The notes under the pieces are model-generated. The model saw nothing but the letters and a program-made list of their open reading frames with translations. It was not told the origin of the DNA and made no database searches. DNA of 64,000 nt. Origin: Sipunculus nudus (Eukaryota > Annelida > Sipuncula > Golfingiida > Sipunculidae). The DNA lies in the NCBI GenBank assembly GCA_026874595.1, contig CM049306.1:62874019-62938018 (forward strand). The letters are read 5' to 3'. Below, one piece after another: positions 1,985 to 63,906 of the stretch. Position numbers and translations under genes: made by a program. Each line of letters starts with the position of its first letter. Position 1 is the first letter of the stretch.

Positions 1985-3665
1985 TAGCAGACTTTTTTCC
2001 AGTATTCTTGTCTTTTTGGTCAGGTGTTTCGATGAGTGACGTTATTCTTTATAGCTGAAGTCAGGAGGCTGCTTACTTATTGAATTCTAGGTATTCTTAT
2101 AGTTTTAGGCAGGTGGCTAGCGCCTGACGATATTGTGAAAGTTATAGGTTAGTTGGTTATCATCTGACGGTTAGAGGTGCGGACAGCATCACCCCCTGGT
2201 TGGGACCGGTCTAGTCAAAGGATGAGCGGTACGGTATTTTGTGTTAGCTGTCCTGTCCAGCCCAGACTAAAACTTTGGACCGGACTGGTCCATGCGGTCC
2301 GGTCCGCACATCTAATGCTGGTAGTTAAGGCAGGTGGCTAGCGTCTGACGTTATTCAGGAGGTTTTAGGCAGGTGGCTAGCGTATGCCGGTATTCAGGTA
2401 GATTTCTATGAAGTGGCCCGCGTATGACGGTAATCAGGAAGGTTTAGGCATGTGGTAAGGGTCTAATGACATTTAAGTAGTTTTAGGCAGGTGGCTAGCA
2501 TCTTGCGCGGTATACAGGTTGTTTTGGGCAGGTGGCTGGCATGTGAAGGTATTCAGATTGTTTTAGGCAAGTGACTAGCGTCTGACGGTATCCAGGTAGT
2601 TTAGGCAAGCGACTAGGATCTTATGGTATTCAGGTAGTTTTAGGCAGGTGGCTAGCGTGACCGTCTGACGGCATTCAGGTTGATTTATGCAGGTGGCTAG
2701 CGTCTGACGATATTCAGGTAGTTTTAGGTCGGTGGCTAGCGTCTGGCGGTATTCAGGATGTTTTGGGCAGGTTGTTAGCGTGTATGGGTATCCAGGTTGT
2801 TTTAGGCAGGTGGCTAGCATCTGACGGTATTCAGCTTGTTTCAGGCAGGTGGGTAGCGTATGACGGTATTCAGGTGGTTTTAGTCATCAGTCTAGCATCG
2901 GATGGTATTCAGGATGTGTTAGGCAAGTGGCAAGCGTATGGCGAGTTTTAGGTTGTTTTAATGCATGTGGCTAGCGTCTGACGGTTTTTTTTCAGGTTGT
3001 TTTAGGCATGTGGTTAGTTTCGGACGTTATATTAGTTGTTTTAGGCAGGTGGCTAGGGTAAGACGGTATTAAGTTTGATTCAGGCAGTCGGCTAGCGTAT
3101 GATGGTTTTCAGGTTGTTTTAGGCAGGTGGCTAGCGTATGACGGTATTCAGGCTGTTTTAGGCAGGCGGCTAGTTTCTGAAGGTATTCAGGTTGTTTCAG
3201 GCAGGTCGCTTGGGTGTGACGGTATTCTGGTTGTCTTGGACAGGTTGCTAGCGTATGACGGTGTTCAGGTTGTGTTAGGCAGGTGGCTATGGTCTGACAA
3301 TATTCAGGTAGTTTTAGGCAGATGGCTAGGATCTGACGGTATTAAGGTTGTCTTAGGCAGGTTGCTAGGGCTGACAGTATTCAGGTTGTCTTAGGCGGGT
3401 TGCTAGGGTCTGACGGTATTCAGGTAGTTTTAGGTAGGGACGTTTTTGTTGAAGTACATGTATTTGTCACCTGGCTCCGCGACTGTAGTTATTCTTGCAG
3501 TTTCAAATCGCTTGGCGATTGATATCATAGGAAGATATTCTTGCAGTTTCAGTCAAGTTCTTGGCGACTGTATTTATTCTTATAGTTTCAGTCGGGTGTC
3601 TCGGCCAGTGACATTATTATTGAACTATTAGTCAGGCGAAAGACATTATTCTTCTTGGAGCCCGC
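1985..3665. repeat. 39-bp minisatellite with related flanking repeats
   Basis: From about 2,080 to 3,445 the DNA is a tandem array with a period near 39 bp. The recurrent core is TTTTAGGCAGGTGGCTAGCG followed by TCTGACGGTATTCAGGT. Copies are diverged, with roughly 35 units by eye. On each side (1,985-2,060 and 3,450-3,665) lies a longer, related repeat containing GTCAGGTGT..CAGTGAC..TTATTC, so the array expanded inside an older repeat. Short open frames here are repeat artefacts. Confidence 0.9.
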
Positions 3666-19426: not shown

Positions 19427-19430
19427 ATAC
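19427..19430 (+). repeat. Left target-site duplication ATAC
   Basis: The four bases ATAC immediately precede the TGTTAC start of the retrotransposon and recur directly after its terminal GTAACA at 27,047-27,050. Confidence 0.8.
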
Positions 19431-19722
19431 TGTTACAGGTGCCTTTTTCTTGTGTGACACGGGCGTAACTCGTGTTTTGGCGCCCGTGTCTGTCCACGTA
19501 TTGCATTCTCTGTTTAATCCGTACTAGTTGAACTCTCGTTGTCATGCTGGGTTGGGGCTTTCTCGCCTGGTCGGGCCGGGACGAGGTCACCAGTGGACCC
19601 TGGTATGTAGAGGCACAGCGATGTTCTTCTAGATGATTCCTGTAACGTGTGTTTACTGTGTATTATGTTAGATCCTTTAGACTGTTCGAGAAGTGACAAA
19701 TTCTCGGGTTGGGGCAAGAAGT

Positions 19723-19730
19723 TATAAATA
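19723..19730 (+). promoter_or_regulatory. LTR TATA box, first copy
   Basis: TATAAATA followed by a G-run and CTGTGTTTTAGAGCC, identical in context to the TATA box of the right LTR. Confidence 0.65.
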
Positions 19731-20095
19731 GGGGGGCTGTGTTTTAGAGCCGAGACAGAGGAGAGAATATTCCAGCGGACACAGACGTGTTTATTTCAGT
19801 TTGTGGGACCTGTCTGATTATCCAGTAATTTCAGGGATTCTTCTATTACTAACTCTACCCAATTTAATGCTGCCTGCCTCAAGTTTACTTTTTGGATTCT
19901 TACAAGAGCTTTAAATTGGGCTGTTATTCTCCGAGAGTATACATTTAAAGAACTTGTCGCTGTGGCGGTGATGTTATCCAGGTACTATGCACTTTGTTTA
20001 TTAGGCTGTGTGATTATATTGATTTGATGTTATACTGTTATTGTACTGTGTAATTATATTGATTTAGGGTACTGTAATGTTAGGGTTGTTTTAAG

Positions 20096-20101
20096 AATAA
20101 A
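20096..20101 (+). terminator. LTR polyadenylation signal, first copy
   Basis: AATAAA in the conserved context GAATAAATTATAGTTATTTGTTAACA, shared with the second copy and with the right LTR. Confidence 0.55.
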
Positions 20102-20207
20102 TTATAGTTATTTGTTAACATTAATTCCTGAAATGCGTGTTTACTGTTGAGTAGGGTCCTTATAGACTGTTCGAGAAGTGGTAAATTCCCTGCTTTGGGT
20201 GTGAAGG

Positions 20208-20215
20208 TATATAAA
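20208..20215 (+). promoter_or_regulatory. LTR TATA box, second copy
   Basis: TATATAAA preceded by GTTCGAGAAGTGG and followed by GGGGCTG, the same arrangement as the first promoter. Only the left LTR contains this second promoter. Confidence 0.6.
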
Positions 20216-20573
20216 GGGGCTGTTTTTTAGAACCAGAGGGCAGAGAGCAGAGAGCAGAGCAGATACCAGCGGACGTCAGAAGGGTGTGTCAGGACCTTAT
20301 CCGACGAATGCGGCAATTACAGAGTTTCAAGAACTTTTTCCTGGATTTTATACATTTGGACTTCAGTTTACTTTCTGTGTTGTTGCAAGAACTTTCTACT
20401 GGACTGTCATTCTCCGAGAGTTAACATTATCAAGGACTATCGTTGTGATGGTGTTGGTATCAAGGTACTGTACCATTATCTTTATGTGTGATTATATTGA
20501 CTTGTTACTATAACGCTGTTTTACTGTATAATTGTATTGATTTAGTGTATTGTATTGTTAGGGTTGTTTTAGG

Positions 20574-20579
20574 AATAAA
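20574..20579 (+). terminator. LTR polyadenylation signal, second copy
   Basis: AATAAA in the duplicated R/U5 segment of the left LTR. Confidence 0.5.
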
Positions 20580-20732
20580 TTATAGTTAGTTGTCTACAAA
20601 AAACCACTGACTTCTTTATTCATTTCCCTAGACATTTTGCGCTGCCTACAGAATCTGTTTTTTTTATCTCCATCACAAAATTTGTGTTCATCACGCATAC
20701 GTGATCTGTTTATATTAGGTTCCGTAACTTAA

Positions 20733-20752
20733 AATTGTGGGCTCGTCTAGGA
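20733..20752 (+). other. Candidate primer-binding site (tRNA-Pro type)
   Basis: Just inside the left LTR, TTGTGGGCTCGTCTAGGAG resembles the 18-base primer-binding site complementary to the 3' end of tRNA-Pro, with 14 of 18 positions agreeing by eye. Position is right for a PBS. The mismatches may reflect decay or use of another tRNA. Confidence 0.45.
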
Positions 20753-21107
20753 GGCGTAATAGTTTTGAAAATTTATTAGGCCTTGACCTGGACACGTTTT
20801 ATCATACATTGTTTACAAGATTACATACTGTTTACAAGTGCCGTCTAAATCCATAGAAGAATCCGTAGCTTGCGGGGTAAAAACCTCAGTTGATTCCTGC
20901 GAGTAATAATAAGGCTAGATCCTTTCAAGACTCCTGCGAGGACTATCCTTTAAATAAGGCTAAGTCCTTTTATGACTCTTGTGAGTGTATTTCAAATGAG
21001 GCCAGGTCCTCTTATGACAAACAGAGGAAAATTCCTCTGTTGACTCACATGAGGAGTTTGATTGTAAAAAGTATGTAGATTCCTTTAACGACTCTGAAAA
21101 AGAGTTT
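20753..21107 (+). pseudogene. Residual leader/gag region, mostly deleted
   Basis: Only about 350 bp separates the PBS from the protease, whereas an intact gag would need over 1 kb. The segment carries three imperfect ~63-bp repeats with a core like AAGGCTAGATCCTTTCAAGAC (20,910-21,030), translating to a repeated S-[FY]-[QY]-D-S-C-E pattern. No capsid motif or CCHC zinc knuckle is visible. This may be the surviving tail of gag. Confidence 0.45.
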
Positions 21108-21566
21108 ATGACTGACACAGTCAATGTCAGTTCTTTGTTTGATGAAGCTGAGGTAGTAGATTACTCTCCTGACTCTGAAATGGAGTTATTTGAGCCATTC
21201 ATACATGATGGTTTTGTATCACTTTCAAGTGAATTTTCATATCCTACCCCTATTAGAATTTTGAGGGACACTGGTTCAGGCCAGACTCTCGTGTTAGCAA
21301 ACACTTTGCCATTTTCTGATAGGTCTTTTACTGGTTCACATGCACTTGTTAATGGTGTGTTTTCAGACAGGCACACTTCAGTTCCGGTTCACAGTATCCA
21401 TCTTAAGTCAGATTTGATTTCTGGGAATATTACTGTGGGCATAAGAACTACTTTACCCTTTAAGGGAGTTCAGTTGCTACTAGGCAATGATGTTGCAGGT
21501 GACAAAGTACAGCCTGTACCAATAGTGACAGAAAAGCCGTCACTTAATCAGGACACTGATCCGTAA
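21108..21566 (+). pseudogene. Retropepsin-like protease remnant
   Basis: A 152-codon open stretch with an aspartic protease signature: the active-site triplet D-T-G-S at residues 54-57 (D54 codon at 21,267) after hydrophobic ILR, and the late flap/dimer motif LLLGNDVAGD near residues 124-133. The frame is intact but has lost its upstream gag and stops at TAA before integrase. Retropepsins cleave the Gag-Pol polyprotein and act as dimers. The start shown is the first ATG, not necessarily a real initiation site. Confidence 0.75.
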
Positions 21567-21589
21567 AGTCAGGAAATCCCTGGTCTGTA

Positions 21590-22967
21590 TCCTTCATGTG
21601 CTGTTTCTAGATCTATGGCCAAGAAAAACACACATGAGGATATTGGTCCAGGTTATAATACTCATAGCATTTTCAAGGACAGAACTTATCACGGAACAGC
21701 ATAAGGACCTTGATATTTCATGTTTGTTTCCCAGGCCATTTTCTAAAGATGAACTGTCACAGAACCCAGTTTGTTTCTATGTTAAAAATGGAGTGCTTAT
21801 GCGTAAATGGCGACCACCTGATGTATGCGCTGATGATGAGTGGGCCATCAAACATCAAATAGTAATGCCAAAAAGCTTTTCGCAATGAAACTCTTAGCAT
21901 GGCACATGAAGCTCCTTTTTCTGGCCATTCAGGTATAAACATGCGAGATGGTAGGCAAGCCCAATCAGAATCCTCCTAAGGCCCCACTTACGCCTATTCC
22001 TGCTTTCGAGGAACCATTCAGTAGGATTATTGTTGACTGTGTTGGACCACTGCCCAAAACAAAATCTGGACATGAATACTTGCTGACAATTGTTTGCGCA
22101 TCTACCAGGTTCTCTAAGGCAATACCTTTGCGCAAAATTATTGCCTAAAGTGTTGTCAACGCTCTGACTATGTTTTTTTACAACTTTTGGATTACCAAAA
22201 TCCGTCCAGTCTGACCAAGGGTCTAATTTTATGTCTGGATTATTCCAGCAAGTTATGCTTGAGCTAGGTATGAAACAGTACAGCTCTTCGCCATACCATC
22301 CTGAAAGTCAGGGCGCCCTCGAGCGTTTTCCCAAGACATTAAAAAACCCGATCAGGACCTATTGCTATGACCCTCAGAAAGACTGGGATGAAGGAATCCA
22401 CCTATTGCTGTTGTTGTCAGAGAATCCTTTCAAGAGTCCTTGGGTTTCAGTCCCTTTGACCTAGTTTTCTTACATGGACCGCGAACTGAACTTCCATTGA
22501 AACTGCTTAAAGAAAAAAGAAAAGATTTTCGCAATAAACTAAACAATGCTTGTGAGATTGCAAAATCAAATCCTAAATCTGCACAAAGTAAAATGAAAAC
22601 AAATTATGGCAGGCACAGTGTAAGTAGGACGTTTGAGCCTGGTGTAAAGGTCCTTGCCTTACTTCCAATCCCTAGCAGACCTCTGTAAGCTAGGTATTTT
22701 GATCCTTACATTGTTGACAAGAAAGTCAGTGATTTAAATTACACACTGTTGACACCAGATAGACGTAAGAAGAAACAGCTGTGCCATATTAACATGTTGA
22801 AACCATATTACGACAGAAATAGCACATCAGATGTTGTACATAATGTTACTGCTGTGAATTGTATAAACACTGACCCTGACCCAGTTAAAATAGATACTGA
22901 TTGTAAGTGTGATGTAGACATTGAGTGTGTTACAGTACCATTAAAACAAGTGAACCATGGGTCATGA
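21590..22967 (+). pseudogene. Integrase remnant (HHCC, DDE core, GPY/F)
   Basis: Several frames together cover an integrase. The N-terminal part has NGVLMRKW and IVMPKSF followed by an HEAPFSGHSG-like segment, but the Cys half of the HHCC zinc finger is deleted near 21,945. The DDE triad codons survive: D in RIIVDCVG (22,035), D in QSDQG (22,213), E in QGALERF (22,321), with D-x35-E spacing. A frameshift lies at about 22,150-22,190, another near 22,437, and an in-frame TAA at 22,686. The C-terminal DPYIVDK..LCHINMLKPYY resembles the GPY/F module of Gypsy integrases. Not functional. Confidence 0.85.
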
Positions 22968-23049
22968 CGCTCAGCTGACTGGGAAGAGATTCGTAAAAGG
23001 AAATTTTATCATCTGAATGGTAGTATATACCCGTTCAACTGAAGCATCA

Positions 23050-24815
23050 AACAGATTAACCAACAGGCCAAGATTGTGTCTGTATTTATATATGTCAAAA
23101 ATATAGAAAAGATGCGTAAACTATAAAAAATTACAGGTGGCTCCACCAGTCTGCAGAAACTAATAAAAACACATGGCCAATATCCATGCAAAGAATCATG
23201 GTGATCTCTGCATAAGTTGTTTAGATACTTCAGCTTTTGTATCAATTTTCCATTATTCTGAGGGATACTTCTGAGTCCTATAGCTTGAAGGATATACGTA
23301 ACAGAGACCTAATTTCAGGTTTCCACAGACACTTTTCATGGGCCTCCTTGTATTACAAGAATGAAGAATCTAGGTCCAGTTGTTACGATTTGTACCCTGT
23401 TGACAGATATCAACATTTTTAAAGGTCTCAAAAAATAGAGAAAAAAATTCATAAAAATTTGAAAAAAATAGCGGTGGCACACCCAGTCTGCAGAAACTGA
23501 TGGAACACCTCGTGATCAATATGTATGCCAAAAATCATGAACATCAGTGTTGTAGTTATCGAGATACTGCAGTTTTTGTATCAAATTTTTCATTATTCTT
23601 GGGGGTATTTTGGAGCCATACAGCTTAAAGGATATGGGTAACAGAGACCTAATTTCAGGTTTCCATGGAGACTTTTCATGAGTCTCCCTGTGTGTCAAGA
23701 ATGAAGATTCTTGGTCCAGTTGTTATGATTTGTACCCTGATAACAGACTCATATCTTTAAAGGTCTCAAAAATAGAGACAAAACTTCGTAAAAACACCCG
23801 AACAAATACAGATGGTGCCACCAGTCTGCAGAAACTGATGAAACATTCAATGATCAATATCCATGCAAACAATTATGGTGATCTCTGGATTAGTTGTTCA
23901 GATACTTCAGCTTTTGTATCAAATTTTCCATTATTCTGAGCTGTACTTTGGAGTGCCATAGCTCAAAGGATATGGGTAACAGAAACCTAATTTCAGGTTT
24001 CCAAGGAGACTTTTCATGGCTCTCCCTGTGTGTCAAGAATGAAGATTCTAGGTCCAGTCGTTACGATTTGTACCCTGTTGACAGATAGCTACATCCTTAA
24101 AGGTCTCAAAAATAGACAACAAAAAATTGTAAAAATTTGAGAGAAAAAAACAGGTGGCGCCACCAGTCTGCAGGAACTGATGGAACACCTCTTGATCAAT
24201 ATGTATGCTAAAAATCATGACCATCAGTGTTGTAGTTATTGAGATGTTGCAGGTTTTTTTATCCAATTTTCCATTATTCTGGGGGGGGGGGGTAATTGGG
24301 AGCCCCACAGCTCAAAGGATATGGGTAACAGAGACCTTATTTCTGGTTTCCATGGAGACTTTTCATAGGTCTCTCACTGTGTCAAGAATGAAGATTCTCG
24401 GTCCAGTCTTTACGATTTGTGCCCTGTTAACAGATGTTCACATTTTTAAAGGTCTCAAAAATAGAGAAAAAAATCTAAACAAATCGAAAAATACAGGTGG
24501 CGCCACCAGTCTGCAGGAACTGATGGAACATCTCATGATCAATATGTATGCCAAAAATCATGACCATCAGTGGTGCAGTTAATGAGATATTGAAGTTTTT
24601 GTATGAAATATTTGACTATTCTGGGGGGTACTTTTGGGCCCCATAGCTCGAAGGATATGGGTAACAGAGACCTCATTTCTGGTTTCCAAGGAGTTTTTTT
24701 ATGGACCTCTCAGAATGTCAAGTTACAAGTTTCTAGGTCCAGCGGTTACGATTTGTGCCAGGTTAACGGACGGACGGACGACGGGCAAAGGGTGATCGCT
24801 ATAGCTCAGATGACT
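23050..24815 (+). repeat. ~340-bp satellite array inserted in the retrotransposon
   Basis: Five tandem units, with the marker CCACCAGTCTGCAG (or close variants) at about 23,144, 23,484, 23,820, 24,162 and 24,502, giving periods of 336-342 bp. Each unit also carries CATGACCATCAG / CATGGTGATCTC, GGATATGGGTAACAGAGACC and GGTCCAG..TTACGATTTGT. The right edge ends with a short GGAC-rich run and CAAAGGGTGATCGCT (24,786-24,800). A diverged relative lies in reverse orientation at 53,986-54,840. It separates the integrase end from RT and is not part of pol. Confidence 0.9.
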
Positions 24816-24880
24816 AAGTCAGCTGAGCTAAAAACTCAGACGTGCTTTAAAACCTGGATGACAAACGGTCACACCTTACC

Positions 24881-25640
24881 GCACAACAACAACAGGACCT
24901 CAAGAACTTGCTGCGGAATTATGAGCATTTGTTTAGTGACATTCCAACTCGAACTAGCATGTTGTGCCATGACGTCGGTGTTGGCAGAGCAGGCGCGGTC
25001 GAGCAGCGTCCTTGTAGACTGAAAGGCCCAGAAAGGCAAAGGTATCTACAGGATGAGATTCGGTATTTTATTGAACCTAGTAACAGTAACTGGAGTTCAC
25101 CGTGTATTCTTGTGCCAAAACCTGATGGAAGTTACCGTATGTGCACCGATTCCGAGGATCGATGATTGTATTGATAGAGTCCGTATCTCCAGATATGTTT
25201 CCAAGTTTGACTTGCTAAAAGGATTCTGGCAGCTTCGAGCGAAAGAAGTGTCCGCAGTTGTGACGCCGGAAAGACTGTACCAGTATAAAGTTATGCCGTT
25301 TGGCATAAAGAAGTCGCCACTCACGGTCCAGCGCCTCATCCATATGGTTGTCAAGGACATTCAGGGCTGCGACGCATATATCGCATATATCTCATCGTGT
25401 ACAGCGACACCTCGGAGAAACATCTGCGGATTCTTCGCGACCTCTTCGAAAGACTCGGTGAAGCACGTCTGACCGTCAACTTGGTAAAATCTTGGTTTTG
25501 GCATGCACTAGTAACATTTTTGGGTCATATTGTGGGGCAGGGTCCGGTAAAACCGGTTGATGCTGAGATGGGTGCTATATCTGCATTTCCTGGACCAGAA
25601 ATCAAAAAGCGAATGATGCGTTTTCTTGGTATGGTTTGGT
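24881..25640 (+). pseudogene. Gypsy-type reverse transcriptase remnant
   Basis: The upstream segment contains [15 protein letters not shown] and [18 protein letters not shown]. Next come [34 protein letters not shown] and FLGHIVGQG, the usual succession of Gypsy RT blocks. Defects: the expected linker between the CTD block and PRIDDCID is missing with a frame change near 25,155. The [YF]-x-D-D catalytic block at about 25,370-25,405 is scrambled (AYIAYIS in one frame, LIVYSD in the next), leaving no catalytic Asp pair. It copied element RNA into DNA in the ancestor and is inactive here. Confidence 0.88.
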
Positions 25641-26156
25641 ACGACAGGAAGTTTTGTCCAAGTGTTTCTGCTGTGGTTGAACCTTTGACCAATTTGTTAA
25701 ATAGGAAACAAAGGTTTGTATGGAATGTTCGGTGTGAAAATGCGTTTCAGAATTTGGGAGCAATTTTGCAAAGTTCACCAGTTTTAGCAGCTCCAGACTT
25801 GTCTGTACCTTTTAGGTTATATGTAGATGCTGGTGATACTGCTGCTGGTGCTGTGTCGTTGCAAGGGGGCAGTGATGGCATAGATCATCAAATATGTTAT
25901 ATCTCGAGAAAGTTTAATGCAAACCAGAAAAACTACTCACTATTGAAAAAGAATGTTTGGCTTTGATTTTGGCATTGCAACATTTTGAAGTTTATGTTAC
26001 TCCATCAATCAAGCCTATAATTTTTTTTCAATGAGCATAATCCCCTCACGTTCATGAACAAGCTGAAGTGCGTTCTTACATGATTACAACCGTGAAATCA
26101 AACACATTAAAGGGAAGGACAATGAACTTGCTGATTGCTTATCGAGATGTTTGTGA
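25640..26156 (+). pseudogene. RNase H remnant
   Basis: Begins with the connection RFVW..CENAFQNLGAIL and continues with LYVDAGDTAAGAVSLQ, where the Asp is the first RNase H catalytic residue. A frameshift at about 25,941 splits YS from TIEKECLALILAL. Much of the middle is deleted after about 26,020. The closing HIKGKDNELADCLSR motif before TGA (26,154-26,156) retains the usual end of Gypsy RNase H and marks the end of pol in this domain order. Confidence 0.85.
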
Positions 26157-26277
26157 AATGTTGTGGACAGGATGTTTATGTAATGTTGTAAATAAGATGA
26201 TTTTTGAGATGTTGTAAAAATTTAGTGATTGTGATCGCAAAAAGAAAGTTTTCCAAGAAAACTTTCTTTTTTCTTGC

Positions 26278-26288
26278 AGGAGAGGGAG
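26278..26288 (+). other. Polypurine tract
   Basis: AGGAGAGGGAG abuts the TG of the right LTR, the expected place for plus-strand priming. Confidence 0.75.
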
Positions 26289-27046
26289 TGTTACAGGTGC
26301 CCTTTTTATTGTGTGATAAAGGCGTAACTCGTGTTGTGGCGCCCGTGTCTGGCCGCGTATTGCATTCTCTGTTTAATCCGTACTGGTTGAGCTCTCGTTG
26401 TCATGCTGGCTTGGGGCTTTCTCGCCTGGCCGTGTGTTTACTGTGTATTATGTTAGACCCTTTCGACTGTTCGAGAAGTGGAAAATTCTTAGCTTGGGGC
26501 AAGAAGTTATAAATAGGGGGCTGTGTTTTAGAGCCGAAAGAGAGAGGAAAGAATATTCCAGCGGACACACAAACGTGTTTATGTCAGTTTGTGGGACCTG
26601 CCTGATTATCCAGTAATTTCAGGGATTCTACTATTACTAACTCTACCCAATTTAATGCTGCCTGTCTCAAATTTACTTTCTGGATTGTTACAAGAGCTTT
26701 ACATTGGACTGTTATTCTCCGAGAGTATACATTTAAAGAACTTGTCGCTGAGGCGGTGATGGTATCCAGGTACTGTGCACTTTGTTTATTAGGCTGTGTG
26801 ATTATATTGATTTGATGTTATACTGTTATTGTATTGTGTAATTGTATTGATTTAGTGTACTGTAATGCAAGGGTTGTTTTTAGAATAAATTATAGTTATT
26901 TGTTAACAAAAAACCACTGACTTCTTTATTTATTCCCCTAGACATTTCACGCTGCCTAGTGTTACAGAATCTGATTTTTTTTATCTCCATTACAAAATTT
27001 GTGTTCATCACGCATATGTGATCTGTTTATATTAGGTTCCGTAACA
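26289..27046 (+). repeat. Right LTR
   Basis: 758 bp, starting TGTTACAG and ending GTTCCGTAACA. TATAAATA is at 26,508-26,515 and AATAAA at 26,884-26,889. Compared with the left LTR and the solo LTR at 63 kb it lacks a ~70-bp GC-rich segment (at about 26,428), and it does not have the internal duplication of the left LTR. Confidence 0.9.
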
Positions 27047-27050
27047 ATAC
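27047..27050 (+). repeat. Right target-site duplication ATAC
   Basis: Matches the ATAC directly left of the element. Confidence 0.8.
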
Positions 27051-36404: not shown

Positions 36405-36810
36405 TAAGGCGATTTTCGTAATTTTCCGTATCTCCTCTGATACCATCGTACGGATTACCGTGATTTTCCGTATCTCTTCTGATACCATCGTACGGCTTGC
36501 CGTAATTTTTTGTATCTCCTCTGATACCATCGTACGGATTGCCGTGATTTTCCGTATCTCCTCTGATACCATCGTACGGATTGCCGTGATTTTCCGTATC
36601 TCCTCTGATACCATCGGACGGATTGCCGTTATTTTCCATATCTCCTCTGATACCATCGTACGGATTGCCGTGATTTTCCGTATCTCCTCTGATACCATCG
36701 TACGGCTTGTCGTAATTTTCCGTATCTCCTCTGATACCATCGTACGGATTGCCGTGATTTTCCGTATCTCCTCTGATACCATCGGACGGATTGCCGTGAT
36801 TTTCGCTATA
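36405..36810. repeat. 42-bp minisatellite inside Helitron-like copy 2
   Basis: About nine units with core GATTTTCCGTATCTCCTCTG followed by ATACCATCGTACGGATTGCC. Because 42 is a multiple of three and the unit has few stops, long apparent proteins with a 14-residue repeat appear on both strands. They are artefacts. Copy 1 of the element has only one to two units. Confidence 0.93.
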
Positions 36811-40984: not shown

Positions 40985-42000
40985 TGAAACAGTGCAGAGG
41001 GATATTGGGGAGGCGTTCGGTGCCTTTGACAGATGGAAATTTGGGAGGCGTTTGGTGCCTTTGTCGGATGGATATTGTTACGGAACCTAATATCAACAGA
41101 TCATGTAGTCGTGACGAGCACAAACCTTGTTACGGAGATAAAAAAATCAGATTCTGTAACACAAGGCAGTGTGAAATTTTTAGGGGACTGAATAAAGAGG
41201 TCAGTGTTTTTTGTTAACAAATAATTATAATTTATTCTTAAAACAAACCAAACATTACAAAACAATAAATCAATACAATTACATAGTATAACAACAGTAC
41301 AGCAGCAACTCAGTACAATTACACAGTATTAAATAAAGTATACAGCTAAATAATTAAGTCCTTTAAAGCATATAATCCAGATGAACAGTTCACATAAATC
41401 TTTTCAGAGAATAATAGTCCAATTCCATCACAAAATCAATTTGTTGTAATCCGAAAGTGAAGTTCTGGTAGTGATCCCAAAGGCAAACTGAAGTCTAAAA
41501 TTCGTTACAAATTTGAAGAAGATCTATAACTGCTGCAATTACGGGATAGGTCCACAAACTGACTCACACTCTTCCGTTTATTTCTCTCTCCTTTCTTTTT
41601 GGCTCTAAAACACAGCCCCCTATTTATAACTTTTCACCTCAAGCCGAGAACTTTCCATTTCACGAACAATCCAAAAGAACCCAACAATACATAATACACA
41701 CGCCCAAAGAACATACTAGAACAAAGATCGTGTTTCTACACGTCAGACCCAATACGTGTGCCGGTCCCAGCTCGCGCGTCTCCCATGGCAACGGACAATG
41801 CTAGCGCTTCACGGGCACATGTAAGACTGCTGCACACAATAAGAGAGATACCTGTAACAATATTGGGGAGGCGTTCGGTGCCTATGTCAGATGGATATTG
41901 GGGAGGCGTTTGGTGCCTTTGTCAGATGGATATTAGGAAGGCGTTTTGTGCCTTTGTCAGATAGACATTAGGAAAGTGTTTTGTGCCTTTGTCAATAGGT
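40985..42000. repeat. 35-bp minisatellite split by a solo LTR
   Basis: Units of GATATTGGGGAGGCGTTTGG followed by TGCCTTTGTCAGATG occur at 40,999-41,075 and again at 41,860-42,000. The 784-bp between them is a solo LTR that landed in the array. Confidence 0.9.
41076..41859 (-). mobile_element. Solo LTR of the 19-27 kb family, copy A
   Basis: Reads TGTTACGGAACC to CCTGTAACA on the + strand, the reverse complement of the retrotransposon LTR. It includes the inverted AATAAA region (near 41,233) and inverted TATAAATAG (near 41,620). It is flanked by ATAT on both sides (41,072-41,075 and 41,860-41,863). No internal sequence is present, so it arose by LTR-LTR recombination. Confidence 0.9.
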
Positions 42001-45987: not shown

Positions 45988-47272
45988 AGGGATATAAGGG
46001 ACATATTTGACGGGGATACAAGGAACATATATGACGGGGATATAAGGAACATATATGACGGGGATATAAGGAACATATATGACGGGGATATAAGGAACAT
46101 ATATGACGGGGATATAAGTTACATATATGGCGGGGATACAAAGAACATATATGACGGGGATATAAGGTACATATATAACGGGGAAATAAGGTACATTTAT
46201 GGCGGGGATATAAGGTACATATATGAGGGGATATAAGGAACATATAAGACAGGGATATAAGGTACATATATGATGGGGATATAAGGAACATATAAGACAG
46301 GGATATAAGGTGCATATATGACGGGGATATAAGGTACATATATGACGGGGATATAAGGTACATATATGATGGGGATATAAGGAACATATAAGACAGGGAT
46401 ATAAGGTACATTATATGGCGGGGATTTAAGGTGTATATATGACGGAGATATAAGATACAAATATAACGGGGATATAAGGTGCATATATGACAGGGATATA
46501 AGGAACATATAAGACAGGGATATAAGGTGCATATATGACGGCGATATAAGGTACATATATGACGGGGATATAAGGTACATATATGACGGGGATATAAGGA
46601 ACATATAAGACAGGGATATAAGGTACATATATAACGGGGAAATAAGGTACATTTATGACAGGGATATAAGGTACATGTATGACGGGAATATAAGGTGCCT
46701 ATATGACGGCGATATAAGGTACAAATATGACGGGGATATAAGGAACATATAAGACAGGGATATAAGGTACATATATGACGGGGATATAAGGAACATATAA
46801 GACAGGGATATAAGGTGCATATATGACGGGGATATTAGGGTACATATATGACAGGGATATAAGGTACATATATGATGGGGATTTAAGGTGCATATATGAC
46901 GGAGATATAAGATACAAATATAACGGGGATATAAGGTGCATATATGACAGGGATATAAGGAACATATAAGACAGGGATATAAGGTGCATATATGACGGGG
47001 ATATAAGGTACATATATGACGGGGATATAAGGTACATATATGACGGGGATATAAGGAACATATAAGACAGGGATATAAGGTACATATATGACGGGGATTT
47101 AAGGTGTATATATGACGGGGATATAAGGGACATATAAGACGGAGATATAAGATACAAATATAACGGGGATATAAGGTGCATATATGACAGGGATATAAGG
47201 AACATATAAGACAGGGATATAAAGTGCATATATGACGGGGATATAAGGTACATATGTGACGGGGATATAAGG
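45988..47272. repeat. 24-bp minisatellite with higher-order structure
   Basis: About 53 tandem units of the form GGGGATATAAGGTACATATA plus TGAC. Two main variants occur (ACATATATGACGGGG and ACATATAAGACAGGG). A longer block starting GGGGATTTAAGGTG and passing through GATACAAATATAACGGG recurs at about 46,422, 46,877 and 47,093, showing segmental duplication of several units. Since 24 is eight codons and most units lack stops, long repetitive frames exist on both strands; they are not genes. Confidence 0.97.
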
Positions 47273-47274
47273 TG

Positions 47275-53987: not shown

Positions 53988-54840
53988 CGATCACCCTTTG
54001 TCCGTCCTAGATCCGTCCGGCTGTTAAATGGGAACAAACTGTTACCGTCAGACCTAGAAACTTTTATACCTGAGTATCCAAGGAGGTCATAGGCAATTCT
54101 CCATGGAAACCTAAAAATAGGTCATTGTGCTATATATTTTGCAGGCTTAGGGCCAAAAACATGATTTTGATCACCCAGACGGTTTGACGAGGCACAATAT
54201 TTTAACCATTAGGCCTAGAATCTTGGGAGGTCCTATATAAACCTGAAACTAGGCCTTGATGACCTGTATTCTGCGAGCTATTGTTGAGAACATCAATATG
54301 AGAACCGAGACAGTCAGAAAGGGCACAAAACTCACTGTTATACCTAGAACCTTTCTTATGTTACATCCTTGGAGGTCCTTTGCAAATCTCCATTGAATCA
54401 TGAAATTCGTTCACTGTGACCTATGAGCTGTAGGATAAAGTAGATTTTAGCACTGTGAAAGTCAGATGGAAAAAAAATCAAAATGGTTGGACCTAGAAGC
54501 TTCTTACTTAAAATTACAGAAGGTCCCTTGCATATCTCCTTCAGCTCTAGAAACGTCTTCCTTAATGTGAAGCGGGATCATTGTAATATCTCCTTGAACA
54601 TCTAAAATAAGGTCATTTTAACCTGTATCCTGAAGGATATCGTAAAAGAACATGGTTTGAGCACCCTATAAGTCAGATTTTTACATTTTGGCTTAATTGA
54701 ACCAAGAACTTCTAATTTGATTAAGATCCAGGGAGGTCCCTGTTAACATCACTTTGAAACCTGGAATGACGTCATAATGACTAAAATAACATGATTTTGA
54801 GCACCCTGAAAGGCATTCTACGCATGGTTCGAAGTTCCAA
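53986..54840 (-). repeat. Diverged relative of the 340-bp satellite
   Basis: Begins AGCGATCACCCTTTG, the inverse of the satellite end at 24,786-24,800. It repeats the same order of landmarks on the opposite strand: GTCCG runs, GTTACCGTCAGACCTAGAAA, GGAGGTC, CCATGGAAACCT. About four diverged sub-units follow, each with a GACCTAGAA and GGAGGTC motif. Confidence 0.75.
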
Positions 54841-55655: not shown

Positions 55656-56539
55656 TTATATTCTTTTCGAGCCATTTCCTACCGTTAGATTAGGATTTCT
55701 GATATTCAAGAAAATTGGGATCTCTTCTTGGCACTTGTTGGTAACAACATAATATTTTGGCTTTTTGAACAGGCCCTTTCATGAAGCCAGGAATAATCCA
55801 CACTTGTTAAATGTAGTTAGTACAACATGCAACCACTCTTCTGTATAAACTTACAGCATTCTTAAGAGGCTCCAGCTTGGAATTAACATGGGATCTTTAG
55901 TTCCAAAACCGTGTCCACATACACGTTTACACACATGCGCGTGTAGGTGCATGTGTGGATATTTAAGGGATGGATTGGATTTGAGGTTAATTATTATAGT
56001 AAACTGCTATATCCAAGTAATTCTATCCTGAGGCTGATTCGGCGTTCCCTGTTCATTGACATTATCCTTGTTTTTAATATAATATTTCGGATGAATTCAT
56101 ATGGGCTTTTAACAAGGCACGTAGATTTGTTTACAGACAACGCAATAAGCAAAACTGAAATGAGATGAGGATTGTGTTGAAGCTCAGTCGAATTTAATTT
56201 GTAAGTTAATCTTCGAACTTCATCGTCTAATTTTCCTGTCTTTTCAGATGTTGGAGTAATCGACCGACCGGACCAGCATCCATATCTAATTGTTCACCGT
56301 GGTAACATAATTCTTAAACAGCGCAGTTACAAAAGGACCTTGCAGAGAATTGGTGTCCCTTCTGACATTTATACCAATACCTCTTCTTTAACACATGTCG
56401 GGTTGATTTGCAAGTTACGGATTGCCTTATATTTTTTTACTTTTCGACCTCACGGACAACGTTAAGCATTCCAGTTTAGGTTAACTAACTGCAGATCTAT
56501 CCGTATGATTAGATTACATACATTAAAAGCCACACAACA
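55656..56539. other. Upstream region of the GPCR gene
   Basis: A candidate short intron in the 5' leader is visible: GTAAGT at 56,201-56,206 and a pyrimidine-rich TTTTCAG ending at 56,247. At about 47 bp it would be unusually small, so either site may pair with a distant partner. No clear TATA box is assigned. Confidence 0.35.
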
Positions 56540-57652
56540 ATGACACTAAATGTTACCTTAGATGAACTTGGAGGATATTTGCGGTTTTCCAGTCACTGGG
56601 ATTTGGTTCGAGCTGATACAGCACTTCAACCCCATGTGGAACAACTACTACTCAGGAACAAGACTCTAACACCCGAACTCCGCATACTCCGGGATGTCTC
56701 GTGGTGGCTCAACTCAGCGTGGACTCCGGTATTTGTTGGAATTGGCATTCTGGGAAATTTAGCTTGCCTTGTAGGCCTCGTGAGGTCTACTCTTCGGCAC
56801 GTGTCACCGGGGCACTACCTTGCAGCCCGCGCAGGCGCAGACAGCGCCTTCCTGTTAACCCTTCTCTTTGTATGGATAGCGGATTTTGAGATCGCACACA
56901 AACATTTTTACCTGACTGTTGGTTGGTGTCAGTTTGTTTCCTACGGGAGCCACCTTAGTACTTTTCTAGCAACCTGGGTGACGGTGGCTTTATTGATAGA
57001 TCGCGTGATATTCGTGCGTTATCCTGAAAAAAGAAAAGTAATGTGTACAGTTTTTCGATCCCGCGCGGTAATCGTTGGTCTACTAATCTTGGATATGGTG
57101 GTTTGTCTGAACATCAGCCTGACGGAGGGGGTGGTAGAGTACGACGATTGGTACATGTGTTCACCAATGCCAGAATTTATGAAGGTCATGAGAGTGTTAG
57201 AGAAGCTGGACACTATTGTCAATTTCATACTGCCCTACACTGCCGTACTTGTTATATGTATCTTACTTCGTAGCAACTTGTGCAGTGCTCAGTCACGTGG
57301 GGGCTCACGTGACGAGGACTGTCCAATCATCTTAGACATGGAAATGACGCGCACGTCCATTTTGGTAGGCATGTTTTATGTATTTTTCACTCTCCCGTCA
57401 TACGTACTTAAGCTCCATCACTTGGTGAGAGGAGCCACGGATGAAAACGAAATGGTACCGCCTTCTGTGCTGACTTTACAGCAGATCTTGAAGTTCCCTA
57501 TGTATTTAGGATACGCGTCCACCGGCATTCTTATTGTCCTCAGCAACAGCAAACTGCGTGGGACAATGTGTCACTTAATATGCTGTTGTTCTTTTCATGG
57601 AAAATCCATAGAAAACAGAGATTCGGAAGAAATACCAATGGCTACGACATAA
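56540..57652 (+). CDS. Class A (rhodopsin-like) GPCR, single exon, orphan
   Basis: A 370-residue protein with seven membrane segments at about 60-83, 91-115, 127-156, 174-196, 224-246, 271-293 and 311-334. Landmarks are G72-N73 (1.50), D101 (2.50), C130 and C207 (the TM3-ECL2 disulphide), D154-R155-V156 in place of DRY, P232 (5.50) and P286 (6.50). The 59-residue extracellular N terminus has N-glycosylation sites at N4 and N40 and no signal peptide. Helix 8 (339-350) ends in C348-C350, likely palmitoylated. FTLP replaces CWxP and TGILI replaces NPxxY. The start has A at -3 and is the first ATG. Probably a peptide-type receptor of a lineage-expanded invertebrate family; the ligand is unknown. 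Confidence 0.9.
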   Translation: MTLNVTLDELGGYLRFSSHWDLVRADTALQPHVEQLLLRNKTLTPELRILRDVSWWLNSAWTPVFVGIGILGNLACLVGLVRSTLRHVSPGHYLAARAGADSAFLLTLLFVWIADFEIAHKHFYLTVGWCQFVSYGSHLSTFLATWVTVALLIDRVIFVRYPEKRKVMCTVFRSRAVIVGLLILDMVVCLNISLTEGVVEYDDWYMCSPMPEFMKVMRVLEKLDTIVNFILPYTAVLVICILLRSNLCSAQSRGGSRDEDCPIILDMEMTRTSILVGMFYVFFTLPSYVLKLHHLVRGATDENEMVPPSVLTLQQILKFPMYLGYASTGILIVLSNSKLRGTMCHLICCCSFHGKSIENRDSEEIPMATT

Positions 57653-63010: not shown

Positions 63011-63014
<4 letters not shown>

Positions 63015-63906
63015 ACGGAACCTAATATCAACAGATCATGTTGTCATGACGAGCATAATTTTGTTATTGAGATAAAAAAAAAAACAGATTCTGTAACACT
63101 CGGCAGCGAGAAATGTCTAGGGGAATGAATAAAGAAGTCAGTGTTTTTTGTTAACAAATAATTATAATTTATTCTTAGAACAACCCTAACCCTAACAACC
63201 CTATAATACACTAAATCAATACAGTTATACAGTATAAAAACAGTACAACAGCAAATCAATACAATTTCACAGTATAATAAATAAAGTGTACAGTACCTAG
63301 ATACCACCACTGTCACAGCGACAACAATTCCTTTAAAGCATATAATCAAGATGAACAGTTCACAAAAATCTTCTCAGAGAATAACAGTCCAGTTCAATCA
63401 CAAAATCAATTTTTTGTAATCCAAAAGTGAAGCTCTGATAGTGATCCCAAAGGCAAAATGAAGACTGATTAAAATCCGTTACAAATTCGAAGAAGGTCTA
63501 AAACTGCCGCACTTATTTGAAAAGGTCCACAAACTGACTTACACTCTTCTGTGTCCGCTGGAATATATCTCTCCTCTCTCCTCCCTCTTTAAAACACAGC
63601 CCCTTATTTAAAACTTTTCACCTCAAGCCGAGAGCTTTCCAATTCCCGAACAATCCAAAGAACCCAACAATACACACGTTACAGGAAACACCTAGTACAA
63701 GGAACGCTGTGTTTTTTCATATCAGGGTTCCCACGTGGGCCGGCCCGGCTCGGCCAGGCGAGAAAGCCCCAGACTAGCATGACCGCTGTGTTTACACGTC
63801 AGACCCAACCCGTGTGCCGGGCTATGCCACCATAGCAACGGACAATGCTAGCGCTGCACATACACATGTAAGACTGCTGCATACAATAAAAGAGACATTT
63901 GTAACA
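63011..63906 (-). mobile_element. Solo LTR of the 19-27 kb family, copy B
   Basis: Begins TGTTACGGAACC and ends TTTGTAACA on the + strand, the same as copy A. ATAT precedes (end of the TA tract) and follows (63,907-63,910). At 896 bp it is longer than copy A and keeps the GC-rich segment (CGGCCCGGCTCGGCCAGG, near 63,740) that the right LTR of the full element has lost. The TATA region reads TTTAAATAAGG in sense, a change from TATAAATAGG. Confidence 0.9.

Follow-up and report, generated by a model that had tools for sequence, protein, structure and literature searches.

Ty3/Gypsy-type elements carrying the integrase (IN) upstream of the reverse transcriptase (RT) have been described as Gmr1-like elements (PMC6238403, PMC8220671, PMC2582038), also from frogs and pufferfish relatives. 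Their occurrence in protostomes is already published: crustacean elements were reported as the first ones (PMC3587641), and for the annelid Lamellibrachia luymesi Gmr1-like elements were reported with agreeing trees of RT, RNase H (RH), and IN (PMC8220671). A later annelid study, in its accessible parts, did not find the Gmr1 clade in its own analysis, yet counts it among the multi-phylum clades (PMC8556966). For molluscs, the accessible text of a survey of 47 further species besides 9 mollusc genomes mentions six Gypsy clades already known, Gmr1 not being one of them (PMC6238403), and a search for Gmr1 together with mollusc, bivalve, and Gypsy yielded, in the accessible parts of the literature, no report of Gmr1 in a mollusc; the name Gmr1 is absent from PMC10294476 and PMC8905726. 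The SCAN domain is said to descend from the Gag of a Gmr1-like element (PMC3424704).

The DNA analyzed here is a stretch of 64,000 nucleotides, called the window in the following, which lies on C1 of a genome of 1.43 Gb. The mollusc haemocyanin domain PF14830 was matched neither in this genome nor in the control genomes. The window contains an LTR retrotransposon which is, very probably, a decayed member of an abundant family of Gmr1-like Ty3/Gypsy elements with a native integrase-before-RT order, the copy itself having suffered loss of gag and damage to the zinc finger and the RT active site.

Structure of the element

The retrotransposon occupies positions 19431–27046 (+) between a 5′ LTR of 1299 bp (19431–20729, +) and a 3′ LTR of 758 bp (26289–27046, +; TGTTAC...GTAACA). 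TGTTAC opens both LTRs and GTAACA closes the 3′ LTR. The target site duplication ATAC was read directly at 19427–19430 and, as right copy, at 27047–27050; this 4-bp duplication is ATAC provided that the LTR end is CA, the 5′ LTR having CT at this place. Thereby, the two LTRs with matching duplications proposed in a first-pass annotation were borne out. The distance between the LTRs is K2P 0.065 (745 aligned sites). The 5′ LTR owes its length to a 478-bp insert (20118–20595), itself a divergent LTR fragment with about 75% similarity to the 3′ LTR, and to 74 bp (19571–19644) absent from the 3′ LTR. In other LTR copies (40 scored of 6312 candidates), the match mostly consists of two parts separated by roughly 60–80 bases at the 19571–19644 site. 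Judged from these match coordinates, the 3′ LTR without the 74 bp is therefore probably the odd one among the LTR copies.

At 20736–20753 (+), 14 of 18 bases, the best plus-strand match in the window, form what we take to be a primer binding site resembling that of tRNA-Pro. The polypurine tract GCAGGAGAGGGAG (26276–26288, +), read directly, adjoins the 3′ LTR. Two solo LTRs related to those of the element are located on the minus strand of the window, one at 41076–41859 inside a 35-bp minisatellite (flanks ATAT/ATAT) and one at 63011–63906 (flanks ATAT/ATAT, one of them being a TA repeat).

Order of the pol domains

In the window copy, the pol domains follow each other on one strand in the order protease (PR), IN, RT, RH. 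The protease piece (21129–21560, +) carries DTGS at 21267 and LLGND at 21477; it gave no Pfam match and aligned with the protease stretch of the relative L001 described below (43% identity, E 5e-35). The integrase (21664–22832, +) is spread over several frames and comprises a shortened H2C2 region, the DDE residues at 22035, 22213, and 22321 with a D2–E spacing of 35 residues, and the GPY/F site at 22698–22709. In the Pfam scan, for which the window pieces were taken each in its own frame and unjoined, rve matched at 22174–22302 (+) with E 5e-6 but below the cut-off (27.1 bits vs 32.6), and the integrase p58 C-terminus (p58_C) matched at 22704–22805 (+) above the cut-off (E 4e-9). The RT piece with broken frames (24851–25388, +; RVT_1, E 7e-9) is followed by the RT end, connection, and RNase H (25346–26156, +), with an RNase H match of E 4e-18 and the tail ADCLSRCL in front of the stop at 26156; RVT_1 and RT_RNaseH_2 both matched above the cut-off. 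The 132 bases left between this stop and the 3′ LTR are too few for an integrase, so the standard Ty3/Gypsy order with IN after RH was not found in the window copy.

The first-pass annotation had placed DTGS and the DDE residues correctly, and its order of PR and IN followed by RT and RH agrees with the Pfam order rve, p58_C, RVT_1, RNase H on the plus strand. Its GPY/F motif after DDE was recovered as a site, together with the p58_C match, although the letters read DPY. Among solved structures, a set too sparse for placing clades, the nearest ones are from foamy virus for the integrase piece and from Ty3 for the RT piece (E 2e-20).

Sister copies within the genome

The integrase piece was found at no fewer than 149 further places of its own genome (77–90% identity), and the RT-RH piece likewise at 149 or more (63–80%). 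Among the 11 best-matching sister loci, which exclude the window and are no random sample, IN lies upstream of RT on the same strand in 10 and PR upstream of IN in 9. An RT was missing within 1.5 kb in L033 and a protease in both L034 and L040, and the RNase H piece of L035 is inverted. The order was also followed by coordinates, combining each of 150 listed integrase places with the nearest of 150 listed RT-RH places within 5 kb. Among these listed matches, RT was located downstream on the same strand in 26 of 28 pairs (window included), and 122 of the 150 integrase places were without a listed RT partner. Both exceptional pairs are located on C15 within groups of copies spaced about 5–6 kb apart, and their spacing suggests that the RT listed as nearest is probably that of an adjacent copy.

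Concordant order in independent copies had been proposed as a check in the first-pass annotation, and besides the sister loci and pairs, IN comes first in both contigs known from outside the genome. Related copies with the order PR-RT-RH-IN, which were named there as opposing evidence, or any family copy in which RT precedes its own integrase, were not seen among the loci compared. As a control, 20 other Gypsy-type loci (L011–L030) were picked by hand from 150 listed integrase-family matches of the same genome; 18 of them have the order RT-RH-IN and the remaining 2 an integrase alone. A SCAN match was obtained in the sister copy L045 (3.5e-8) and, below the cut-off, in L043 (0.0037); in L044 SCAN was not found and only a weak zinc knuckle was present.

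Relatives outside the genome and domain trees

A first scan of genome contigs revealed no relative, nor did the scan of viral contigs, for which pieces of integrase and RT, degenerate motifs, and an alignment were used. When contigs of prokaryote genomes were scanned with a motif, two contigs of one Heimdallarchaeota MAG (L001 and L002) were obtained. Their unbroken frames of 1718 and 1244 codons both continue beyond the left contig edge. The frame of L001 contains SCAN (1e-11) and that of L002 a weak zinc knuckle, followed in each case by H2C2, rve, p58_C, RVT_1, and RNase H. Nine window pieces were placed in the same order on both contigs; identities to the window were 69–79% for the integrase core, 43–58% for the C-terminal parts of the integrase, 43–58% for RT/RNase H, 41–43% for the protease, and 36% for the stretch before the integrase, the RNase H tail being placed in L002 only. 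The presence of a SCAN-bearing LTR retrotransposon among archaeal contigs is most easily explained by animal DNA, and L001 and L002 therefore probably represent animal contamination of the MAG.

Separate trees were calculated for RT-RH (20 rows), IN (23 rows), and RT (19 rows), including 17, 20, and 16, respectively, of the 20 Gypsy-type control loci, wherever the piece was extractable. The window copy, L001, and L002 grouped together with ultrafast bootstrap values of 100 (RT-RH), 98 (IN), and 100 (RT). After addition of the sister copies no other Gypsy locus entered the group, and in the tree strings its split had values of 96 for IN, where the group comprises 14 of 34 rows, and of 100 for RT (11 of 27 rows), the node labels printed for the group after re-rooting being 66 and 56. 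IN and RT thus show the same grouping, as expected for one shared history. Trees of both domains against named Gmr1-like and other Gypsy clades were a further check suggested beforehand; the agreement between the domains was obtained, but with unnamed relatives and with other Gypsy elements from the same genome. The scaled distance to L001/L002 was 2.1 [1.72–2.54] for RT/RNase H vs 1.55 [1.25–2.0] for the integrase, with slightly overlapping intervals.

Insertion between integrase and reverse transcriptase

Integrase and RT are separated in the window copy by a stretch of about 1.88 kb (22947–24829, minus strand; ends uncertain by a few bases), which is interpreted as a Helentron-type non-autonomous element (HINE). 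It is absent from all 9 sister copies aligned at the integrase-RT junction, i.e., 9 of the 11 best sister loci with L033 and L035 left out. With most of these, homology of the window breaks off at 22946 and picks up at 24830, in an A run. As judged from these alignments, the stretch is a later insertion.

Inside the HINE, a tandem array with a repeat unit of 338 bp extends from 23127 to 24767 (4.8 copies). The 11-bp inverted subterminal repeats GCTCAGCTGAC and GTCAGCTGAGC are located at 22969–22979 and 24818–24828, each occurring once in the window. The hairpin is strong (z −4.4; 0 of 200 shuffles as good), and a GTCC-type microsatellite is present. Subterminal inverted repeats, palindrome, central tandem repeats, and an oligo-T insertion without duplication, as characteristic of Helentron-type HINEs, were thus all found. 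By analogy, the insertion fits the scheme of non-autonomous Helentrons described in oyster (PMC7492417), here on the minus strand. Likened by description, it has in common with Cg_HINE of Crassostrea gigas, as presented in the accessible parts of that paper, the subterminal inverted repeats, the palindrome, the GTCC-type microsatellite, the central tandem repeats, and the oligo-T/A insertion, and differs from it in the 338-bp repeat unit. A weak match (about 70%) to the HINE end is located at 53996–54123 of the window, and a literature search for the DNA motif of the insertion gave no match.

Decay of the window copy

A deletion junction on the plus strand at 20835/20836 marks the loss of gag; the sister copy L045 contains about 2.6 kb at this place, and L044 likewise is without much of the gag stretch. 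H2C2 was not matched by Pfam in the window pieces scanned, the 53 bases 21886–21938 not being taken as a piece of their own, and the pieces flanking the H2C2 region are 80–100 bases closer together in the window than in L002 and L001. The YxDD site of RT reads AYIAY (25374–25388) vs YIDD in the relatives. Judged from the loss of gag and the damage to the zinc finger and the RT active site, the window copy is dead and cannot be autonomous. While the element and its domain order had been recognized in the first-pass annotation, the Helentron-like insertion, the gag deletion, and the damage to zinc finger and RT site had been overlooked.

Discussion

With Gmr1 of Gadus morhua, LGF3 of Lamellibrachia luymesi, and GyRex4 and its relatives from crustaceans, the family has Gypsy-type enzymes in the order PR-IN-RT-RH in common. 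In the window copy, the Gypsy type is apparent from RVT_1, RT_RNaseH_2, and p58_C, with rve below the cut-off. IN is located upstream of RT both in the window and in the best sister loci, and a SCAN-type gag, known from the Gmr1 clade, is present here in relatives and sister copies (L001 and L045), the window copy having lost its gag. Compared by description, the window copy differs from the named elements in this loss and in the Helentron-type insertion. We assign the family to the Gmr1 clade on its domain order, its SCAN gag, and the way it groups with unnamed elements. The Gmr1-like identity put forward earlier is thereby supported by sister-copy order, agreeing trees, and SCAN gag, as measured against unnamed relatives.

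Three other explanations of the domain order were considered. A standard Gypsy element could have been shuffled by local rearrangement or nested insertion, with the repeat array marking the junction. A foreign 338-bp array does separate integrase and RT in a heavily damaged copy, but the 9 aligned sisters run from integrase to RT without the array, the insertion sits within an A run, and the same order recurs in nearly all sister loci compared and in both outside contigs; we consider this explanation highly improbable. The same view had been taken in the first-pass annotation, and the sister-copy order and the empty sites at the insertion confirm it. The Ty1/Copia group has the order PR-IN-RT-RH by nature and so shares its pol order with the window copy. 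Its RT belongs to the family RVT_2, which was not among the Pfam matches of the window, whereas RVT_1 and RT_RNaseH_2 matched, the closest solved RT is that of Ty3, and the integrase ends in p58_C. A Ty1/Copia element was rejected on this basis, its probability being practically nil.

A chimaera with integrase and RT from two Gypsy lineages would be in line with the relatively larger distance of RT/RNase H to L001/L002 and with the different nearest solved structures. Against this, close kin of the integrase piece are found in the same sister loci as those of the RT and RNase H pieces, and the two domains give agreeing trees, which leaves a chimaera very unlikely; if there was one, it arose in the ancestor of the whole group. 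The Gypsy-type control loci belong to the same broad RT, RNase H, and integrase families as the Gmr1-like family, but mostly have the order RT-RH-IN and only 23–42% identity to the pieces of the window or L002.

The ancestor of the Gmr1-like family would have encoded one Gag-Pol chain consisting of SCAN-type capsid, zinc knuckle, protease, integrase, RT, and RNase H. Reverse transcription would have been primed by a tRNA, probably that of proline, and integration performed by the element's own integrase, giving a duplication of 4 bp. Cleavage of the Gag-Pol chain by the protease would yield separate enzymes, and therefore the integrase-first order need not alter the replication cycle. In the window copy, gag is gone, as are part of the integrase zinc finger, the intact frames, and the RT catalytic motif, and the Helentron-type insertion has been gained; the sequence of these damaging events is a reconstruction from the anatomy, sister-copy order, insertion, and decay observed.

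The exceptional pol order is common to the sister copies and hence no product of rearrangement. The element represents a new, abundant family within the known Gmr1-like kind and is ordinary within that kind. Should its host be a mollusc, the mollusc survey (PMC6238403) may have overlooked the family or listed it under another name. Somewhat more tentatively, and with slightly less than an even chance in our estimation, a SCAN-bearing family of this abundance in a probable lophotrochozoan, together with its relatives in the archaeal MAG, would point further back: the package of SCAN-type capsid and integrase-first pol could be old in Bilateria. If so, the capsid later recruited as vertebrate SCAN domain would have ridden on Gmr1-like elements before the split of protostomes and deuterostomes; the alternative is a later spread by horizontal transfer between animals. 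The finding adds an abundant Gmr1-like family with a SCAN-type gag in a possible lophotrochozoan.

Related sequences and other features within the window

Two solo LTRs related to those of the Gmr1-like element lie on the minus strand at 41076-41859 and 63011-63906, both flanked on each side by ATAT; the former is enclosed by a 35-bp minisatellite. The 5′ LTR of the element itself contains a 478-bp insert (20118-20595) that is a fragment of another, diverged LTR of this type; the insert perhaps arose by recombination between subfamilies. The retrotransposon also harbors a non-autonomous Helentron-like element (22947-24829, minus strand) carrying an array of 338-bp repeats, the end of which element is weakly matched by 53996-54123. 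Other features of the window comprise an unbroken open frame of 379 codons matching the rhodopsin-type 7-transmembrane receptor family (56513-57649; E 5e-11) and minisatellites of 39 bp (2328-3438), 42 bp (36417-36804), and 24 bp (45989-47273; ~53 copies).

Related and other loci elsewhere

Animal-type Gmr1-like retrotransposons were detected on two contigs (L001 and L002) of the Candidatus Heimdallarchaeota B3_Heim bin, and this MAG is therefore probably contaminated. In the S. nudus assembly, the strongest rve matches among those listed are located on the small contigs C106, C110, C128, C135, and C118 (L003-L007), in frames of 226-322 codons. The Gypsy-type pieces used as queries gave no match to these five loci, which may represent bacterial insertion sequences on foreign contigs. 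On contig C15, copies of the Gmr1-like family were found among the matches listed at about 45.892-45.911 Mb and 46.034-46.044 Mb; their spacing of ~5-6 kb suggests that the element occurs in tandem clusters.
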